Source: Streptomyces aurantiacus
Lineage (GTDB): Bacteria; Actinomycetota; Actinomycetes; Streptomycetales; Streptomycetaceae
Direction: 5' to 3'
Length of the DNA stretch: 64,000 bases
Assembly: GCF_027107535.1 (NCBI RefSeq)
Contig: NZ_CP114283.1
Coordinates: 6,882,001 to 6,946,000 of the forward strand
The translations under genes and the position numbers were made by a program. Positions 45,960-54,856 of the stretch are shown here, piece by piece. The notes beneath the pieces were generated by a model. It saw nothing but the letters and a program-made list of their open reading frames with translations. It was not told the origin of the DNA and ran no database searches. Within the stretch, counting starts at the first letter, position 1, and every line of letters starts with the position of its first letter.

Positions 45960-48044
45960 TCAGGCGGCCTTCCGCCCGGGACGGACCTCGATGGGCACCT
46001 GCGGGCCGTCGCACTCACGCAGCCAGCGGCGCAGTACGCGGTGCACCTGCTCGGCACCGACCAGTTCCTCCCCGGCCTGGACGGGCGCGGAGAACGTGAG
46101 CGGCGACATCAGGAAAGGGCGGCCCTGGGCGCCCCCGAGACCGCCGTGCGAGCCGATCTGCTCCTCGAACGCGAGCACCTCGCCCTCCTCGGGGTCGTAC
46201 CAGGAGTTGACCATGATGTCCGCGGTGTGCGGGAACGTGTGCGTGCGGCGCACGGCGTCGGCGGCTCCCGGGCCGAAGTCGGCCAGCGGGCCCGGGTCGT
46301 CGTCGAGTTCGTCCAGGGGGATCGCGGCGCCGTGCGCGCCGAGCACGAGGCCTCCGTGCTCCTCGCTGCGCACGAGCACGAAGCCGACGCCCGGATGGTT
46401 GGCCAGGGTGGTGAGCAGGGCCGGATGCCGGGCGTCGATCTCCTCGCGGCTCATCCGGTGCGGCACGTCCGGGAAGGACACCAGGCCGAGGTTGCCGGAG
46501 GCCAGCACGAGGGGCTCCGAGGCGGGGCCGGTCGGGCGGTACTGTTCGCCGCCCTCCTCCACGGGCCTGCGCAGCGCGGCCCGTACGGCCGCCCTGGCCT
46601 CGGCGCCGCTGTGGGTACGCCGGGCCTTGCGGGGCACGGGCAGTCCGCAGCCGGCCCGGACCAGCTCGCCGAGCCCCAGTCCGTAGCGGGCCCGGAACGT
46701 CTCGCCGGGGCTCTGGCCGTGGTCGGACAGCAGGACCACGCGGTACGCGCGCGGGGCGTGCTCGGCGACCTGCGCGATCAGGGCCAGCGAGCGGTCCAGC
46801 CGCTGGAGGACCTTCTCCGCGTCTCGGCTGCGCGGGCCGGAGTGGTGCGCCACCTCGTCGTACGCGACGAGGTCCGCGTACACCGAGGAACGTCCGGCGA
46901 GCATGTCCCCGATCACCGCCGTGACGACGACGTCCCGTTCGACGACGGTCGCGAAGGCGCGGATGAACGGGTACAGGCCGCCGCGGCCGACCCGGGGGCG
47001 CTTCTTGCCGAGCCGGGCCCGGGTCGACTCGCCGATCTCACGGCCGACGTCGGCGACGAAGGACAGGGCGGTACGGACGGCGTTGGCGGGGTCGGAGAAA
47101 TACACGAAGTAGCCCGCCCGGGAGCGGTTCTCCCTGCCTCTCCTGGCGGCCACGGAGAGCACCAGGGCGAGTTGCTCGGCACCGCCGCTGAAGAGGTTGC
47201 CGCGGCTCGCGCCGTCCACGGTGAGCAGGCCGCCGTCGCCGGTGTGCCCGATGGCCCGGCGCTGGAGTTCCGCGGCGCTGGTGGGCCGGTTGCAGACCAC
47301 GATCTCCTGGCTGTCCTTCTCGTACCAGCGGAAGGCGGGGACGTCGTGGTTGGAACCGTGCAGGATGCCGAGCTGGCTGGCACCGGTCTGGCTCGACCAG
47401 TCGGTGCGCCAGGGAATTATCCGGTGGGTGCCGCGGGAATCCTGGTTCTCGCCGAGCCAGGCGGCCACGGTGGGCATGAGACCGCGTCCGACCGCGTCCA
47501 GGAGCACGTCGTGCCCCACCCCGTCCAGTTGCAGGAAGACGGTGCCGGGCGTCGGCGGGCCCTCGGCGGGCGGTGTCCTCCCCCGGCGTCGGCGGTCGAA
47601 CAGCCGGTACAGCCTGCGTCGGTACGCGTCGTCGTCCCGCACGGCCAGGGCTCCGCCGGTGGCCGAGGCGACCGCCGACATCACCGCGGCGACCACCACG
47701 GCGGTCTCCGGGGCGGCCTCGCTCTGTCCCGACGGGTCGAGACGCAGGGCGAGGAGCAGGAGCGAGCCGTTCAGGAAGAAGACGAGCAGCCCGAGGACGA
47801 GGGCGGGGACGAGGAGCAGGGCCCGCACGAGAAGGGGCCACACGACGGAGGAGAGGACACCGAAGGCGCCGGCGCCGAGCGCGGCGGTGGCGGCGATACG
47901 GGTGGCGCTGTCACCGTCTGCGGACTGGAGCCTGAAGTCCGGCAGGATCCCGGCGAGGGCCAGCATGGTGACCGTGGACACGGCCCATACGGCGACGCTC
48001 CGCCAGACCGCGCTGCCAAGGCTTCGCCATCGTTCCCTGCCCAC
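45960..48044 (-). CDS. Alkaline phosphatase-superfamily membrane protein with holin-type N-terminal domain
   Basis: The 694-residue protein begins with four hydrophobic helices (residues about 15-130) of the phage-holin-like superfamily IV type. A type I phosphodiesterase/alkaline phosphatase fold follows, with the metal-binding motifs FLQLDGVGHDVLLDAV, AYDEVAHHSGP and LLSDHGQSPGETF, and HTADIMVNSWYD near the end. A catalytic Thr/Ser usually follows the first Asp; TGASQLGILHGSNHD is the likely site. It may hydrolyse phosphate esters or phosphoglycerol at the membrane. Whether it faces outward is uncertain. It is on the same strand as MoxR but 169 bases away. Confidence 0.88.
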   Translation of the reverse strand: MGRERWRSLGSAVWRSVAVWAVSTVTMLALAGILPDFRLQSADGDSATRIAATAALGAGAFGVLSSVVWPLLVRALLLVPALVLGLLVFFLNGSLLLLALRLDPSGQSEAAPETAVVVAAVMSAVASATGGALAVRDDDAYRRRLYRLFDRRRRGRTPPAEGPPTPGTVFLQLDGVGHDVLLDAVGRGLMPTVAAWLGENQDSRGTHRIIPWRTDWSSQTGASQLGILHGSNHDVPAFRWYEKDSQEIVVCNRPTSAAELQRRAIGHTGDGGLLTVDGASRGNLFSGGAEQLALVLSVAARRGRENRSRAGYFVYFSDPANAVRTALSFVADVGREIGESTRARLGKKRPRVGRGGLYPFIRAFATVVERDVVVTAVIGDMLAGRSSVYADLVAYDEVAHHSGPRSRDAEKVLQRLDRSLALIAQVAEHAPRAYRVVLLSDHGQSPGETFRARYGLGLGELVRAGCGLPVPRKARRTHSGAEARAAVRAALRRPVEEGGEQYRPTGPASEPLVLASGNLGLVSFPDVPHRMSREEIDARHPALLTTLANHPGVGFVLVRSEEHGGLVLGAHGAAIPLDELDDDPGPLADFGPGAADAVRRTHTFPHTADIMVNSWYDPEEGEVLAFEEQIGSHGGLGGAQGRPFLMSPLTFSAPVQAGEELVGAEQVHRVLRRWLRECDGPQVPIEVRPGRKAA

Positions 48045-48693: not shown

Positions 48694-49533
48694 GTGCCGG
48701 TGGAGATCACTTGGTGGGGTCACGCCACCTGCACGGTCGAGGACTCGGGCACACGCGTGCTCACCGACCCGCTCTTCGCGCGCCGGCTCGCACATCTGCG
48801 CAGGCGCCGGGGGGCGCCGCCCCCGGCCGAGGCGACCGTCGCGGACGTGGCGCTCGTCTCGCATCTGCACGCCGACCATCTGCACGTCCCCTCGCTGGCC
48901 CGGCTCGCTCCGGGCACCCGGCTGCTGGTACCGCGCGGCGCCCCGCGGGCGGTGACCGGGCTGCGCAGGCTCGGCCATCTGCGGCTCACCGAGGTGGCGC
49001 CCGGCGACCGCGTCCAGGTCGGTGACCTGGACGTACGGGTCGTCTCCGCACGGCACGACGGGCGGCGACTGCCGGTCGGGCCGCATCGCGCACCCGCCCT
49101 CGGCTACGTCGTCGAGGGCGAGGCCCGGACCTACTTCGCCGGGGACACGGGTCTGTTCGAGGACATGGCGAAGGAGGTCGGGCCGGTCGACGTGGCGCTG
49201 CTGCCCGTCGGCGGCTGGGGACCGTATCTGGGCGAGGGACACCTGGACGCCGGCCGGGCCGCCGAGGCGCTCGGGCGGTTGCGGCCCGGGAGTGCGGTGC
49301 CGGTGCACTACGGCACGTACTGGCCGATCGGGATGGACGCCGTGCGCCCCCATGAATTCCATGCGCCCGGTGTCGAGTTCGTGCGCCTGGCCGCCGAGCG
49401 TGCGCCCGACGTGACGGTGCACCGGCTCGACCACGGCGAGCGTGTGCGACCGCGGGTCGCGGGGTACCGCTCTTCCCCGGGGGACGCGCCGGGCGGCCGG
49501 GGCGACGACGAGCGGGAGGGCGAAGCACGGTGA
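48694..49533 (+). CDS. MBL-fold metallo-hydrolase
   Basis: The 279-residue protein has the metal motif SHLHADHL (His57, His59, Asp61, His62), GYVVEGEARTYFAGDTGLF with the bridging Asp, and a distal PVHYGTYWPIG. The start WWGHATCTVED is typical of the UlaG/NAPE-PLD-like branch (phosphodiesterase or lactonase activity). GTG 48694 follows AAGGAGG. It shares a GTGA overlap with the DedA-family gene, so the two are co-translated. Substrate unknown. Confidence 0.9.
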   Translation: MPVEITWWGHATCTVEDSGTRVLTDPLFARRLAHLRRRRGAPPPAEATVADVALVSHLHADHLHVPSLARLAPGTRLLVPRGAPRAVTGLRRLGHLRLTEVAPGDRVQVGDLDVRVVSARHDGRRLPVGPHRAPALGYVVEGEARTYFAGDTGLFEDMAKEVGPVDVALLPVGGWGPYLGEGHLDAGRAAEALGRLRPGSAVPVHYGTYWPIGMDAVRPHEFHAPGVEFVRLAAERAPDVTVHRLDHGERVRPRVAGYRSSPGDAPGGRGDDEREGEAR

Positions 49534-50156
49534 GACAGGTGCTCGCCACCACGGTCACGAGCGTGCCGACGGAGTTCACCCAGCAGGCGCTCGGCTATCC
49601 GTCGCTGTTCCTGCTGGTGCTGATCGGCGCGCTGGTGCCGGTGGTCCCGACGGGGGCGCTGGTGAGTTCGGCGGCGGTGGTGGCCTTCCACCGGACGGCG
49701 CCCTTCTCGATGCTGATGGTCTTCGCGGTGGCGTCCCTGGCGGCGTTCCTCGGGGACATGTCCCTGTACTGGCTCGGACGTCGCGGCATGAAGTCGAAGA
49801 ACGGCTCGCGCTGGCTCGCGGCGATCCGCGACCGGGCTCCCGAGGACCGGCTCGCCCAGGCCCAGGAGAAGCTCGCCGACCACGGCGTCGCGGTGCTGGT
49901 GCTGTCCCGGCTGGTGCCCGCGGGGCGCATCCCGGTGATGCTCGCCTGTCTGATGGCGAAGTGGCCGATGCGGCGCTTCGCCCACGGGAACGCGCCGGCC
50001 TGTCTCGCGTGGGCCGCGACGTACCAGCTCATCGGAGTGCTCGGCGGCTCCCTGTTCAAGGAGCCGTGGGAGGGGGTGGCCGCGGCCGTGGTCCTGACCG
50101 TGGTGATCAGCGTGGCGCCCGGCCTCTGGCGCCGGGTGCGGAGCGCTCCGCGATAG
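49530..50156 (+). CDS. DedA/VTT-family membrane protein
   Basis: The 208-residue protein has about four to five membrane segments and the DedA-family region LSRLVPAGRIPVMLACLMAKWPMRRFAHGNAPACLAWA, given here in parts, with the conserved Arg and Gly of the family. DedA proteins help transport or flip lipid carriers such as undecaprenyl phosphate and phosphatidylethanolamine. It is coupled to the MBL-fold gene by a GTGA overlap. Confidence 0.88.
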   Translation: MRQVLATTVTSVPTEFTQQALGYPSLFLLVLIGALVPVVPTGALVSSAAVVAFHRTAPFSMLMVFAVASLAAFLGDMSLYWLGRRGMKSKNGSRWLAAIRDRAPEDRLAQAQEKLADHGVAVLVLSRLVPAGRIPVMLACLMAKWPMRRFAHGNAPACLAWAATYQLIGVLGGSLFKEPWEGVAAAVVLTVVISVAPGLWRRVRSAPR

Positions 50157-50337: not shown

Positions 50338-51501
50338 TCAGGGGAGGGTGCGGGAGGCCCCGACCGGGAGGTCCCACAGGTCTTCGCGGGGCAGGCCTGC
50401 CTTCTCCCAGGCCGCGCGTACGCGGGTGAGCGGCTCCATGACGGGCTCGGCCGACAGGATGAAGGTGCCCCAGTGCATGGGGGCCATCCGCCGGGCGCCG
50501 AGGTCCTGGGCCGCGCGTACCGCGTCCTCCGGATCGCAGTGCACGTCGCTCAGCCACCAGCGGGGCTCGTACGCGCCGATCGGCAGGAGCGCCAGGTCGA
50601 TGCCCGGGTAGCGGGCGCCGATCCGGGAGAACCAGTGCCCGTATCCCGTGTCACCCGCGAAGTACACCCGCCGGCCGTCGGGCGCGGTCAGCATCCAGCC
50701 GCCCCACAGCGTGCGGCAGGTGTCATGCAGGCTGCGCTTGGACCAGTGGTGGGCCGGCACGAAGTCCAGGCGGACACCGCCGAGTTCGGCCGCCTCCCAC
50801 CAGTCGAGCTCGGTGACGTGCGTGAAGCGGCGGCGCCTGAACCAGCGGCCGAGCCCGGCCGGGACGAACACCGGGGTGTCGCGCGGGAGCCGGCGCAGGG
50901 TGGGGGCGTCCAGGTGGTCGTAGTGGTTGTGGCTGATGACGACCGCGTCGACGCGCGGCAGCGCGCTCCAGGGCACACCGACAGGGGTGATCCGGGCGGG
51001 GGTTCCGAGGATCTTGCGGGACCAGACCGGGTCGGTGAGCACGGTGAGTCCACCGATCCGGACCACCCAACTGGCGTGTCCCGCCCAGGAGACGGCGACC
51101 GTGTCCGCGTCCACGCGGGGCAGCGGGCCCGGCTCGTACGGCAGTCGGGACACGTCGGCGAGCCCCTCGGGCCCCGGCCGGAGCGCCCCCTCGCGGGCGA
51201 ACCGCGCGAAGCCGCTGATCCCCGGCAGCGGCGCCGTGAGCCGGCCGGCGAACGAGCGGGGCCAGACACGCCGTTCGCGGAGCGGACGTGGCTCGGAGAG
51301 CGGTGTTCCGGTGTCGGGTGCGGAGGCGGAGGCGGAGACCGGGACGGAAGCCCGGTCGTGGGCTTCCGGGGGTGTGGAGCCGGACGAGGAAGGGCCGGAT
51401 GACGAGGCCGAGGACGAGGAGGGGGAGGCGGGCCGGGACGAGGGCGCCGTGGTCGTGAGGGTGGTCGTGGTGGTCGTGGTCGACTCGGACTGCTGCGTCA
51501 T
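50338..51501 (-). CDS. MBL-fold (NAPE-PLD-like) metallo-hydrolase with Ser/Thr-rich N-terminal extension
   Basis: The 387-residue protein has an MBL core (about residues 130-370) with AVVISHNHYDHLDAPTLRRL (HxHxDH), PAHHWSKRSLHDTCRTLWGG, VYFAGDTGYGHWF and APMHWGTFILSAEP. These are typical of NAPE-PLD/YtnP-like phospholipase D-type hydrolases. Unusually, the first 70 or so residues are almost only Ser, Thr, Pro and Ala (TTTTTTTLTTTAPSSRP; SSSSASSSGPSSSG), with no signal peptide. ATG 51501 overlaps the stop of the preceding aminotransferase-fold gene, so they are coupled. Confidence 0.88.
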   Translation of the reverse strand: MTQQSESTTTTTTTLTTTAPSSRPASPSSSSASSSGPSSSGSTPPEAHDRASVPVSASASAPDTGTPLSEPRPLRERRVWPRSFAGRLTAPLPGISGFARFAREGALRPGPEGLADVSRLPYEPGPLPRVDADTVAVSWAGHASWVVRIGGLTVLTDPVWSRKILGTPARITPVGVPWSALPRVDAVVISHNHYDHLDAPTLRRLPRDTPVFVPAGLGRWFRRRRFTHVTELDWWEAAELGGVRLDFVPAHHWSKRSLHDTCRTLWGGWMLTAPDGRRVYFAGDTGYGHWFSRIGARYPGIDLALLPIGAYEPRWWLSDVHCDPEDAVRAAQDLGARRMAPMHWGTFILSAEPVMEPLTRVRAAWEKAGLPREDLWDLPVGASRTLP

Positions 51502-52739
51502 CGAGGGGACTCCCGTCGCCGAGCGTCGTCATCGTCGCGGAGATCGTCGAAGGTCGATCCCAGGAGACTCAACGCGCTTTCCACATGCGGCAATTCCAGA
51601 GGTTCGGGTGACATGAGAGACGCCATGCGCTCCTCGTCGGTTGAGCCGAGGAACGGTCCGGTGGCCAGGCGGACGCGCAGGGCGCCGAGGTCGTCGCCGA
51701 AGCGGTGGCCGCCGGGCGCCGGCATGCCGAGACGGGCGGTGAGGAAGTCCTCCAGCTCCTGCGCGTCGCCGACGTCGTGCGCGGTGAGCGCGGACCGCAG
51801 CGGTCCGAGGTCGGCGTACAGGTGGCGGCCCGCCCGCGGGGGCCGGACGTGGGCTCCCGCCGCGACGAGCGACCGGTGGGCGGCGGCGGCCACGCTCGCG
51901 TGCAGCCGTACGGACGCGGCGAGGCGGTGCGTGATCTCGTCGGGTTCGTCGAGGGCGTACACGGCGGCCGCGGCGACCGGTGCGGCGATGCGGGCACCGA
52001 GCGCGGTGAGGACGTCGAGGACACGGTCGCGCAGCAGGGTGCCGGTGTCGTTGTCGGGGAAGCGGGCGATCGCGGCGGGCCAGCCCGACGGGAGGAACGG
52101 GCCGCAGAGGTCGGTGAGGACCGTGACCCGCTCGGGCAGCATCTCGGCGGGGCTGAGCAGCACGGTGTCGTGCGGGTCGTGCAGGGTGTCGCGCCAGGTC
52201 TCGTCGCTGACCACGTGCAGGCCCTCGCCCGCGGCGGCCTCGATGGTCTCGTGCACGACTTCGGGCGGCGCCACGGTGGCGGCGGGGTCGTCGGCCACGG
52301 ACAGTACGAGCAGCCGCGGGTCGCCGCCCTCGGCACGCACCCGGCGGACGGTCTCCAGCAGGGCGTACGGGTCGGGGACCCCGCCGCACTCGACGGGCGT
52401 CCCCACCGGGAACACGGAGCTGCCCAGCAGGCGGGCCTGCGGCGCCCACCAGGCCGCGCAGGGGCGGGGCACCAGCACGTCCCCGCCGAGCGCTGCGGTC
52501 AGGGCGAGGAGCAGGGCGGGGGCGCCGGGAGCCGCGACCGCGCGGGCACGGTCGGCGGACAGTCCGCGCCGGGCCCAGTAGCCGCGGGCCGCGTCCAGGA
52601 GGGCAGGGCTGCCGCCGGTCGGTTCGGTGTGCGCGCCCGTCGCGGCGGCGGCGAGTCCGGGCGGCAGCGGCAGGCCGTGGCCCGGCGGGGACGGGCCGTA
52701 ACGGACAGGCCCGTGCCCTTCCGGATCGGTCCGCCGCAT
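51498..52739 (-). CDS. Aminotransferase-fold protein with no lysine
   Basis: The 413-residue protein follows the class I/II aminotransferase plan: a substrate-loop start, APGAPALLLALTAALGGDVLVPRP, VVSDETWRDTL at 176-186 where the cofactor-binding Asp usually sits, and a C-terminal small domain. The segment that should hold the catalytic Lys reads TDLCGPFLPSGWP (209-221), with Cys near the Lys position. The translated sequence contains no lysine at all, so a PLP Schiff base is impossible. ATG 52739 was chosen because GGAGGT lies six bases before it; in-frame ATGs at 52802 and 52862 are possible. The downstream MBL gene is coupled by a four-base overlap. It may be a cofactor-free or regulatory paralogue. 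Confidence 0.8.
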   Translation of the reverse strand: MRRTDPEGHGPVRYGPSPPGHGLPLPPGLAAAATGAHTEPTGGSPALLDAARGYWARRGLSADRARAVAAPGAPALLLALTAALGGDVLVPRPCAAWWAPQARLLGSSVFPVGTPVECGGVPDPYALLETVRRVRAEGGDPRLLVLSVADDPAATVAPPEVVHETIEAAAGEGLHVVSDETWRDTLHDPHDTVLLSPAEMLPERVTVLTDLCGPFLPSGWPAAIARFPDNDTGTLLRDRVLDVLTALGARIAAPVAAAAVYALDEPDEITHRLAASVRLHASVAAAAHRSLVAAGAHVRPPRAGRHLYADLGPLRSALTAHDVGDAQELEDFLTARLGMPAPGGHRFGDDLGALRVRLATGPFLGSTDEERMASLMSPEPLELPHVESALSLLGSTFDDLRDDDDARRRESPR

Positions 52740-52898
52740 CTGTGTACCTCCGCGCAGTCGTCCCGGGCCCGCCGGTTCCCGGGCCGGCCGGGCCTCGGAC
52801 ATGCCGGTCCCCGGACCGCCCGTCCGTGGACCGTCGTGATTCCCACGGTGCTGGTTGTGCACCTGAGGTCTGAGTACCCAGTGATCCGCGCCGCCAAC

Positions 52899-53528
52899 TC
52901 AGCTGTCGGCGGACGACTCCCGGTGGCGCAGTTTGTGCACCGCGGCGCCGAACGCGCCGGCGATCAGGACACCGCCGGTGACCAGCGCGATCGTGGAGTC
53001 GGTGAAGGCTCCGCCCTCACCGGCGTGTACCCCGTGCTGCATCCCGGTGCCGCGGGAGCTCTCGCGGGACACCGTGAAGGACGCGCTCCACTGCTTGCCC
53101 TCGCCGCCGGGCGCGGCCGGGCAGACGCCTTCCGCGCTCCACTCGGAGGTCTTCCCGGCGCTCTCGGGTCCGCCGTCCTCGAAGTTCGCGGCGGGCGCGA
53201 TCCGGGCGGTGCCGCTGTAGGCGGGGCCGCCCGCGGGACCGCCCTTGCCCTCGGGGCCGCCCTCGGGACCGCCGTCGGCGCCGCCCTGGGCCTCGTGCAG
53301 CTGGACGGTGCCGTGCTCGAAGGCCTGCGAGGTGGCGTCGATGGTCTCGGGCGGTGGCCCGCCGGTCGGTTCGCAGGACACGGAGACGGTGACGGTGCCG
53401 CCGGGAGCCACGGTGCGCGGGCTGACCTCGGCGGCCGGGTTCGCCGCCGCGGCCGCCGCGGCGGTGCCGAGTGAGAGGGCGGTGAGGGCGGTGGCGGACA
53501 GGACGCGGGCGGTACGGCGCAGGCGCAT
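52899..53528 (-). CDS. Secreted protein with C-terminal membrane anchor, unknown function
   Basis: The 209-residue precursor has a signal peptide (to about residue 29) and an Ig-like segment (TVAPGGTVTVSVSCEPTGG). A Gly/Pro-rich run follows (GGADGGPEGGPEGKGGPAGG), then a mature domain with one further Cys, and finally a C-terminal hydrophobic helix (about 175-198) with a basic tail KLRHRESSADS. This signals an outward-facing protein held in the membrane. No enzyme motif is seen. Confidence 0.82.
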   Translation of the reverse strand: MRLRRTARVLSATALTALSLGTAAAAAAANPAAEVSPRTVAPGGTVTVSVSCEPTGGPPPETIDATSQAFEHGTVQLHEAQGGADGGPEGGPEGKGGPAGGPAYSGTARIAPAANFEDGGPESAGKTSEWSAEGVCPAAPGGEGKQWSASFTVSRESSRGTGMQHGVHAGEGGAFTDSTIALVTGGVLIAGAFGAAVHKLRHRESSADS

Positions 53529-53920
53529 GGACTCGGTCTCCTCCGGCCGACTGGGGACCTCACACCCGTGTGCGGCGGCGGAGGCGGGGCACGACCGGCA
53601 TGCCCCGCAGTCCATCAGAGCCCCCACTCGGCCGGGGCGCGCGCCGCCGGACACCATTCGTGCCATGGGGGCACCCGAGCGGGTGACGCGAAGGCCGGGA
53701 ACGCCGGCCACGACCGGCGTCCGGCCCCGACCCGAAGGGTGCGCGGAAATGCGGCGCGCACGGTGCCGTCGGGTGGGCCCGGGCCGCTACGGTCCGGCGG
53801 CCGGCGCCGGACCCCGGCTGCCCCCGGGAACGCCCAGGGGCGGGGCGACGGCGGCCCGCGGGGCCCTGGCACCCCGCGCCGCCGTCGGAGCGCCGCGGGG
53901 CCGCACCGCGGGAGGCGGTG
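53529..53920. other. 392-bp GC-rich stretch without a gene
   Basis: No reading frame shows a ribosome site plus natural composition. The only structure is the hairpin at 53847-53886, listed separately. Confidence 0.55.
53847..53886 (-). terminator. Terminator after the sigma factor gene
   Basis: GACGGCGGC and GCCGCCGTC pair as an outer 9-bp stem, continued by CGCGGGG with CCCCGCG after a one-base bulge. It lies 34 bases beyond the sigma factor stop. Confidence 0.6.
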
Positions 53921-54715
53921 TCACGCGATGTCCTGCATCACCTGGTCCCGCAGTCGGTTGCAGCACCGGCTGATCAGCCGGGAGACGTGCATCTGGGAGA
54001 TACCGAGCTGTTCGGCGATGCGGCTCTGGGTCATGTCACCGAAGAACCGCATGTAGAGGATGGCCCGTTCGCGTTCGGGCAGGGCCTCCAGACGGGGCTT
54101 GACCGCCTCGCGGTCGATCACCACGTCGAGGGCAGGATCGGCCGAGCCCAGGGCGTCGCTCAGCGAGTATCCGTCCTGGCTGCCCGGCAGTTCGGCGTCG
54201 AGCGAGAGCGCCGTGAAGCTCTCCAGAGCCTCCAGACCGGTGCGTACGTCGTCCTCGCTCATCTGCGCGTGCTGGGCGATCTCGGCGATGGTGGGCTGGC
54301 GGCCGGGGATCGTCTGGGACAGGTCCTGACGCGCGAAGCGGACACGGTTGCGCAGGTCCTGGACCCGGCGCGGTACGTGCAGGGTCCACATGTGGTCACG
54401 GAAGTGACGCTTGATCTCACCGGTGACGGTCGGAACGGCATAGCTCTCGAAGGCGTTGCCGCGCTCGGGGTCGTAGCGGTCGACGGCCTTGACCAGGCCG
54501 AGCGCCGCGACCTGCCGCAGGTCGTCGAAGCTCTCGCCCCGGCTCCGGAATCGGCCGGCCAGCCGCTCGGCCATGGGGAGCCAGGCCTCGATGATCTGGT
54601 CGCGGAGGGCGTCGCGCGGGCCGCCCGGAGGAAGCGAAGCGAGCTTGCGGAAGTCCTCCGCGGTGTCGGGGGCGTCGTCGTGCGGGTGGTGCCGGGCGCT
54701 CGCGTGAGTTCGCAT
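53921..54715 (-). CDS. SigB/SigF-family alternative RNA polymerase sigma factor
   Basis: The 264-residue protein has sigma region 2 (LRQVAALGLVKAVDRYDPERGNAFESYAVPTVTGEIKRHFRD, in parts), region 3 (QPTIAEIAQHAQMSEDDVRTGLEAL) and region 4 (ERERAILYMRFFGDMTQSRIAEQLGISQMHVSRLISR, in parts). The lack of region 1 and these phrases place it in the SigB/F/G group 3 family, which directs stress and development genes. ATG 54715 follows AAGGGAG. No anti-sigma gene is adjacent. Its position suggests it may correspond to the SigK-type factor of other streptomycetes, but this is not shown by sequence alone. Confidence 0.95.
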   Translation of the reverse strand: MRTHASARHHPHDDAPDTAEDFRKLASLPPGGPRDALRDQIIEAWLPMAERLAGRFRSRGESFDDLRQVAALGLVKAVDRYDPERGNAFESYAVPTVTGEIKRHFRDHMWTLHVPRRVQDLRNRVRFARQDLSQTIPGRQPTIAEIAQHAQMSEDDVRTGLEALESFTALSLDAELPGSQDGYSLSDALGSADPALDVVIDREAVKPRLEALPERERAILYMRFFGDMTQSRIAEQLGISQMHVSRLISRCCNRLRDQVMQDIA

Positions 54716-54856
54716 GATGCGTGCAACTCCCTTGAGGGGTGCTCTGGTTGGACGGTCAACCGTGAGAGCGCACCCTGAGCCGGACGGGCACACCCGTGGG
54801 CGGGCATTCACTACTCCCACGGACGTGCCTCCTGTCCGAAGCACTGCTTACGCGCC

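Follow-up and report, generated by a model that had tools for sequence, protein, structure and literature searches.

The window, a 64,000-nucleotide stretch of Streptomyces aurantiacus DNA (contig NZ_CP114283.1, positions 6,882,001 to 6,946,000), carries a gene for an aminotransferase-fold protein devoid of Lys, followed immediately by a gene for a hydrolase of the metallo-beta-lactamase (MBL) fold. These two genes and their surroundings are laid out as follows, in window coordinates:

45960–48044, minus strand: protein with a phosphodiesterase domain (PF01663) and a holin-like membrane domain (PF04020)
48694–49533, plus strand: second MBL-fold hydrolase (PF12706)
49530–50156, plus strand: DedA/VTT-domain membrane protein, a convergent neighbor
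50338–51501, minus strand: MBL-fold hydrolase similar to human NAPE-PLD
51498–51501, minus strand: ATGA overlap between the pseudo-aminotransferase stop and the predicted MBL start
51498–52739, minus strand: Lys-less aminotransferase-fold protein (pseudo-aminotransferase), 413 residues
52077–52115, minus strand: former Schiff-base segment TDLCGPFLPSGWP, residues 209–221, with G213 at the Lys position and P221 at the phosphate-Arg position
52740–52751, minus strand: ribosome-binding site, GGAGG 7 nt before the ATG, read directly
52874–52879, minus strand: GGGTAC, resembling the -10 element of SigB-type promoters
52899–53711, minus strand: small protein without a family, between the sigma gene and the pseudo-aminotransferase
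53921–54844, minus strand: upstream SigB/SigF/SigG-family sigma factor (290.8 bits against a cut-off of 234.35)

The frame at 51498–52739 is open, starts with ATG behind its ribosome-binding site and translates into 413 residues without a single Lys, just as a sequence-only reading of this DNA had described it. This composition is unusual because none of the 140 genes of at least 300 residues, called crudely in 20 stretches totaling 400 kb of the same genome, is free of Lys; the mean Lys content in that sample is 2.56%, from which ~10.6 Lys would be expected in 413 residues. The proposed class I/II aminotransferase layout is supported by a weak match to the Pfam model PF00155 (Aminotran_1_2) at 30.4 bits, above the cut-off of 19.7; for comparison, 145.4 bits are reached by a Lys-containing relative, and 90 and 73 by L162 and L161, two Lys-less proteins that branch early. 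By sequence, the window protein comes closest among solved structures to Thermus aspartate aminotransferase (PDB 1bkg and related entries; E ~6e-10 over residues 37–227). In the HMMER alignment, DLCGPF...GWPAA of the window protein lies opposite GAAKAF...GWRIG of the Thermus enzyme, placing Gly213 at the position of the catalytic Lys; the segment expected to hold that residue indeed lacks it. G213, P221, D151, W182, D179 and R355 occur in the window protein and in all of the best 120 of 1863 database relatives, which, being those closest to the window protein, add no independent sample, and a sequencing or frame error behind the missing Lys is therefore very unlikely. The window genome holds no close Lys-containing paralog, its sole match at E≤1e-20 being the window protein itself; some other genomes contain both the Lys-less and the Lys-containing kind.

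Homologs of either kind were found at E≤1e-3 in 149 of the 199 relatives searched and at E≤1e-20 in 217 of 297 family genomes, covering 14 of 17 genera. From 207 gathered loci, 10 partial ones were dropped to leave 197 full-length sequences, and removal of 11 duplicates left 186 unique homologs, among which column 213 lacks Lys in 157 and keeps it in 29 (hereafter Lys-plus). Lys-less members occur in Streptomyces and in eight further genera of its family (g60, g61, g62, g63, g66, g67, g70 and g71). In place of Lys they have Gly (128), Ala (20), Glu (5) or, once each, Pro, Ser, Gln and Val, and no Lys occurs anywhere in loop 206–232 of any of the 157. The survey of orthologs that the sequence-only reading called for thus upheld one half of its expectation: the catalytic Lys is absent from all 157 clade members, contrary to the refuting condition of orthologs that retain it, but a total of zero Lys, counted over residues 21–400, is seen in 105, with one Lys in 43, two in 6 and three in 3. 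What the family conserves is a missing catalytic Lys; the total count varies, and the window protein lies at the low end of a family with 0 to 3 Lys in the aligned part. The suggestion that a Cys near position 212 is conserved or special has to be given up, and with it the idea of this Cys as a substitute residue: column 212 is Cys in only 7 of 157, the others including Ala (97), Gly (22) and Ser (15). TGA codons inside some matches proved to be normal stops at the loci looked at, where the match overruns a shorter C terminus. The former Lys loop of four small-genome Streptomyces proteins (L196, L197, L199 and L201) is variable, often with Pro/Gly-rich insertions or replacements, and all four genes still adjoin the MBL gene. 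Separately, the gene is split over two frames in L056 (genome G005) and in L189 and L202 (genome G327), through a frameshift or an assembly error; these copies belong to the 10 partial loci excluded from the counts.

The loss reaches well beyond the Lys. Class I PLP contacts, in the numbering of AspC, include N183, Y214, R254, Y65 and W127/W130 (as given in PMC9309667). We mapped such contacts onto the family by spacing and alignment; the Lys-less and Lys-plus groups were set by column 213 and the remaining columns compared afterwards. The contact columns that have been lost are all or nearly all fixed in the 29 Lys-plus proteins. The phosphate-binding Arg (R254, column 221) is Pro in 145 and Arg in 2 of the 157 Lys-less proteins, against Arg in 29/29 Lys-plus; the pyridine-ring Asn (N183, column 151) is Asp in 153/157 and never Asn, against Asn in 29/29; and the stacking Trp (column 95) is Ala in 122, Pro in 21 and Trp in none, against Trp in 29/29. 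The pyridine-ring Tyr (Y214, column 182) has become Trp in 135/157 and stays Tyr in 7. Y65 (column 38) is Tyr in 0/157 compared with 29/29, and the S-K pair of the phosphate loop has given way to Ala in 128 and Pro in 120 of 157, Lys74 being present in 0/157 compared with 29/29. We take K246, D211 and R374 to be the AspC numbers of further PLP-site residues. Two anchors persist in the Lys-less proteins, namely the pyridine-N Asp (Asp179, 157/157) and the carboxylate-binding Arg (Arg355, 153/157). Column entropy follows the same division, with variability percentiles of 98 for column 38, 84 for 212, 69 for 74, 62 for 95, 52 for 213, 49 for 182 and 35 for 221, compared with 0 for 179, 13 for 355 and 14 for 151; columns 38, 74, 95, 212 and 213 have been freed from constraint, and 179, 151 and 355 are still constrained. 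The cofactor site appears to have been dismantled with part of the pocket retained. Without the Schiff-base Lys no internal aldimine can form, so the earlier statement that a PLP Schiff base is impossible stands, and PLP chemistry is unlikely because the phosphate anchor is lost. Pinning the loss on Lys alone was only half right: Lys is gone, but so are most other PLP-site residues.

The Lys-containing actinobacterial homologs (29 loci, e.g. L057–L067, L163 and L164) are 37–45% identical to the window protein and similar in length, retain K213 together with a complete PLP site, and have GntC as their best NCBIfam model, far below its cut-off. We built a tree of 70 representatives (49 Lys-less and 21 Lys-plus) with the active-site columns removed. 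Unrooted, a single branch with an SH-aLRT of 99 parts the two groups, implying one change. Rooted with seven ordinary Lys-containing aminotransferases (an eighth candidate, L282, was dropped as too short), the 49 Lys-less proteins group as one clade (support 100) and the 21 Lys-plus proteins are paraphyletic, and a single loss of Lys is better supported on account of this outgroup root. L161 and L162 are the first branches inside the Lys-less clade, although the long outgroup branches leave room for a false join; both lack the Lys, still have Arg221 and already adjoin an MBL gene. A midpoint-rooted drawing, which puts L161 and L162 on the Lys-plus side, was rejected as history since the outgroup root places them basal in the Lys-less clade. 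The catalytic Lys thus appears, on a rooted tree with long outgroup branches, to have been lost once within a Lys-containing lineage, and if inheritance was vertical the loss would predate the split of the nine genera with Lys-less members.

The Lys-less gene is under purifying selection. Paired with near relatives, the window gene gives a dN/dS of 0.10–0.28 (six pairs read out), and the median is 0.38, with a maximum of 1.10, over 13,925 Lys-less pairs with dS of 0.15–1, compared with a median of 0.59 among Lys-plus pairs; these Nei-Gojobori values are inflated at strong GC3 bias, and the pairs are non-independent and include duplicates. Among the Lys-less proteins 92 columns are at least 95% conserved, duplicates included.

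The neighboring hydrolase aligns with human NAPE-PLD (PDB 4qn9) at E 4e-59 over 252 residues and shares with it the metal-binding stretch SHNHYDHLD and the motif GDTGY; unlike the human enzyme it is bacterial and has a different N-terminal part, and its phospholipase character is putative, by resemblance. The MBL-fold gene, which the sequence-only reading had called translationally coupled, overlaps the Lys-less gene at 51498–51501, and the adjacency recurs across the family: this MBL gene follows within 900 nt on the same strand in 147 of the 157 Lys-less loci, and within 150 nt in 141. The stop of the Lys-less gene lies in ATGA in 108 of the 157 and in GTGA in 20, the overlapping codon being the putative MBL start. 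No NAPE-PLD-like gene was found beside the Lys-plus homologs (0/29 loci, two of which lack the DNA needed). The earlier view that the gene is maintained rather than decayed agrees with this adjacency, with the single loss on the rooted tree and with the purifying selection.

Of the ten remaining Lys-less loci, four lack the downstream DNA and six, in genomes G032, G045, G058, G218, G482 and G483, lack the MBL gene. No ortholog was found elsewhere in those six assemblies, the best match reaching at most 43% identity, and their Lys-less proteins show 0, 0, 0, 0, 3 and 8 deviations in the 92 conserved columns. We also searched 26 of 54 genomes for the MBL ortholog, defined by 69% identity or more. 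It was present in 4/4 genomes with the Lys-less protein and in 0/6 with only a Lys-containing homolog; in the 16 genomes without an aminotransferase-like match it was absent from 12, lay at a contig end in 3 and stood alone in one, the one-contig genome G427, where no Lys-less protein adjoins it. The three contig-end cases (G099, G442 and G410) were discounted as MBL-only genomes, as the neighbor would fall off the contig. In G427 (locus L254) the NAPE-PLD-like gene lies, by eye, between methyltransferase-like and helix-turn-helix-like reading frames. Strict dependence on the MBL gene was rejected, and protein and hydrolase are linked rather than obligate partners, because six genomes have the protein alone and one has the hydrolase alone.

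The wider neighborhood was counted within 5 kb of 80 Streptomyces loci, contig ends lowering the counts. The DedA-domain gene is near 73 of the 80, the second MBL gene has a match in 77, the phosphodiesterase gene is found in 67 and the small protein in 58; the SigB/F/G-family sigma gene lies upstream in 58, on the same strand in all of them. The best NCBIfam model for the second MBL gene, 'metal-dependent hydrolase', stays below its cut-off, and the gene is convergent in 73 of its 77 loci, the other four being possible cross-hits to the first MBL gene. It overlaps the DedA-domain gene, and this arrangement is kept convergent to the Lys-less/MBL pair; the two genes possibly have a common lipid function. 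The small protein shows, by eye only, an apparent signal peptide and a C-terminal membrane stretch. In the 11 Lys-less loci of other genera (L255–L265), the DedA gene is near 8, the phosphodiesterase gene near 7 and the sigma gene near 2. One of these two sigma genes (L265:8433–10610, minus strand, genome G218) appears frame-broken, as a pseudogene or by assembly error, and G218 is also among the genomes without the NAPE-PLD-like gene. None of the DedA, phosphodiesterase and sigma genes was found near the Lys-less Streptomyces locus L266 or near eight Lys-plus wide loci; neighbors in three sampled Lys-plus loci include AMP-binding, GCS2, MFS and DUF1015 genes.

GGGTAY, the -10 type of SigB-like promoters according to PMC8346170, occurs within 300 bp upstream of 93 of 155 Lys-less loci (two of the 157 have no upstream DNA, and the sequences are related to each other) versus 12 of 155 in a control stretch; the Lys-plus figures are 5/29 versus 3/29. 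A fuller SigB promoter with a GNNT -35 was not upheld, only 13/155 matching at the tested spacing (3.1 in shuffles, 0 in the control stretch).

Taken together, the loss of the Lys and the status of the protein as a conserved pseudo-aminotransferase are, in our judgment, very likely. The sequences show a fold-type-I aminotransferase lineage that lost its Schiff-base Lys once on the rooted tree, along with most PLP anchors, the gene then being retained under purifying selection. It usually stands directly before the NAPE-PLD-like gene, and in Streptomyces a SigB-type sigma gene often precedes it. The product would do no PLP chemistry; it would keep the aminotransferase fold around a remodeled pocket, with Asp179 and the carboxylate-binding Arg355 retained and Asp151 newly fixed. 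Produced along with the hydrolase, it may bind a ligand or serve as a scaffold without catalysis and in that way tune an envelope-lipid stress function. The lipid assignment of the locus would follow from the resemblance of the neighbors (NAPE-PLD-like, DedA). To this whole reading, a conserved pseudo-aminotransferase working non-catalytically with the hydrolase in an envelope-lipid stress function, we give a probability of roughly 0.45. Against it stand the six hydrolase-free genomes that still have the protein, unaltered at the conserved columns in four of them, the hydrolase-only genome G427, the broken-looking two-frame copies in G005 and G327, and the sigma gene near only 2 of 11 loci outside Streptomyces, one of which looks broken. 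Our best guess, a tentative one at somewhat less than even odds, is that within an envelope-lipid stress locus the protein may bind a ligand or act as a regulator. A more specific version is speculative and on balance improbable: the former aminotransferase would be a ligand sensor whose emptied PLP pocket uses Arg355 and Asp179 to bind a carboxylate signal, and it would thereby regulate the NAPE-PLD-like phospholipase of a bacterial SigB-type stress locus and control lipid hydrolysis.

The protein could alternatively still be an enzyme, with a chemistry independent of the PLP aldimine in a remodeled pocket, perhaps acting on the product or substrate of the neighboring hydrolase. Candidate residues, placed in the pocket by alignment, would be Asp151, Asp179, Arg355, a new Trp97, His306 and Cys94, and the replacement is consistent rather than eroded (W97 in 152/157, D151 in 153, H306 in 142, C94 in 136 and R133 in 157); an independent function would also fit the six genomes where the protein persists with no MBL gene. 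However, the old Lys position holds no fixed nucleophile or acid-base group, being Gly in 128, Ala in 20 and Glu in 5, among others, and catalysis at that spot is made less likely by the variable insertions in the former Lys loop of a Streptomyces subgroup (L197 and L199; the insertions are shorter in L196 and L201). We regard this enzyme as unlikely.

We hold it to be quite unlikely that the protein is a ligand-free structural chaperone for the NAPE-PLD-like hydrolase, or one of its obligate subunits, joining it during translation by way of the overlapping genes. The adjacency in 147/157 loci versus 0/29 Lys-plus loci and the ATGA (108) and GTGA (20) stops are what such a subunit would lead one to expect; the six genomes with the protein and no hydrolase, and G427 with the hydrolase and no protein, speak against it.

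A Lys-less PLP/PMP enzyme of the ColD/E1 kind, with another residue in place of Lys, has a printed precedent in the His of ColD, E1 and SpnQ (PMC8987622) and would accord with the retained Asp179 and Arg355, but His stands at the Lys position in 0/157, and the phosphate Arg, phosphate loop, Asn and stacking Trp are likewise lost, which leaves it very improbable. Equally hard to credit is a decaying relic carried along by a conserved neighborhood, to which the loop insertions in some small-genome Streptomyces, the two-frame copies in G005 and G327 and a dN/dS near 1 for some pairs (maximum 1.10) would lend themselves, but against which stand the 92 columns at least 95% conserved (duplicates included), the low dN/dS near the window gene and a Lys loss that would be older than the nine-genus split if inheritance was vertical.

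Set beside known systems, the pseudo-aminotransferase shares PF00155, the pyridine-N Asp and the carboxylate Arg with fold-type-I class I aminotransferases, and differs from them in lacking the Schiff-base Lys, phosphate Arg, Asn, Tyr, stacking Trp and phosphate loop. With the 3-dehydratases ColD, E1 and SpnQ it has in common an aminotransferase fold without Lys; these have His and bind PMP, whereas in the Lys-less family that position is mostly Gly or Ala and the phosphate anchor is missing. SPT1/LCB1 of serine palmitoyltransferase is a fold-type-I relative that lost its Lys and was nevertheless kept (PMC6148460). SPT1 pairs with a Lys-containing homolog, whereas the window genome, searched for close homologs only (E≤1e-20), has none, and the genetic partner is the MBL hydrolase. 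Lys-less fold-type-I proteins are thus already known (SPT1, ColD/E1), and the Streptomycetaceae family adds a variant.

Within a limited body of open-access literature, we found no publication, by title or abstract, on a Lys-less Streptomyces aminotransferase or this family, and none on a Streptomyces NAPE-PLD homolog. The family is a clear example of a catalytic residue lost once in a gene then retained across a bacterial family much used in genetics. Early-branching Lys-less members and Lys-containing sisters allow comparison, and the linkage to a NAPE-PLD homolog lets both genes be tested jointly. Among the best 120 of 1863 relatives, NCBI almost always uses the name 'aminotransferase class I/II-fold pyridoxal phosphate-dependent enzyme'; this name is probably wrong for the Lys-less protein, whose sequence has lost the Lys and most of the other residues needed to hold vitamin B6. 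One S. avermitilis member (P0067) is named 'aminopeptidase' in the database, another sign of unsafe annotation.
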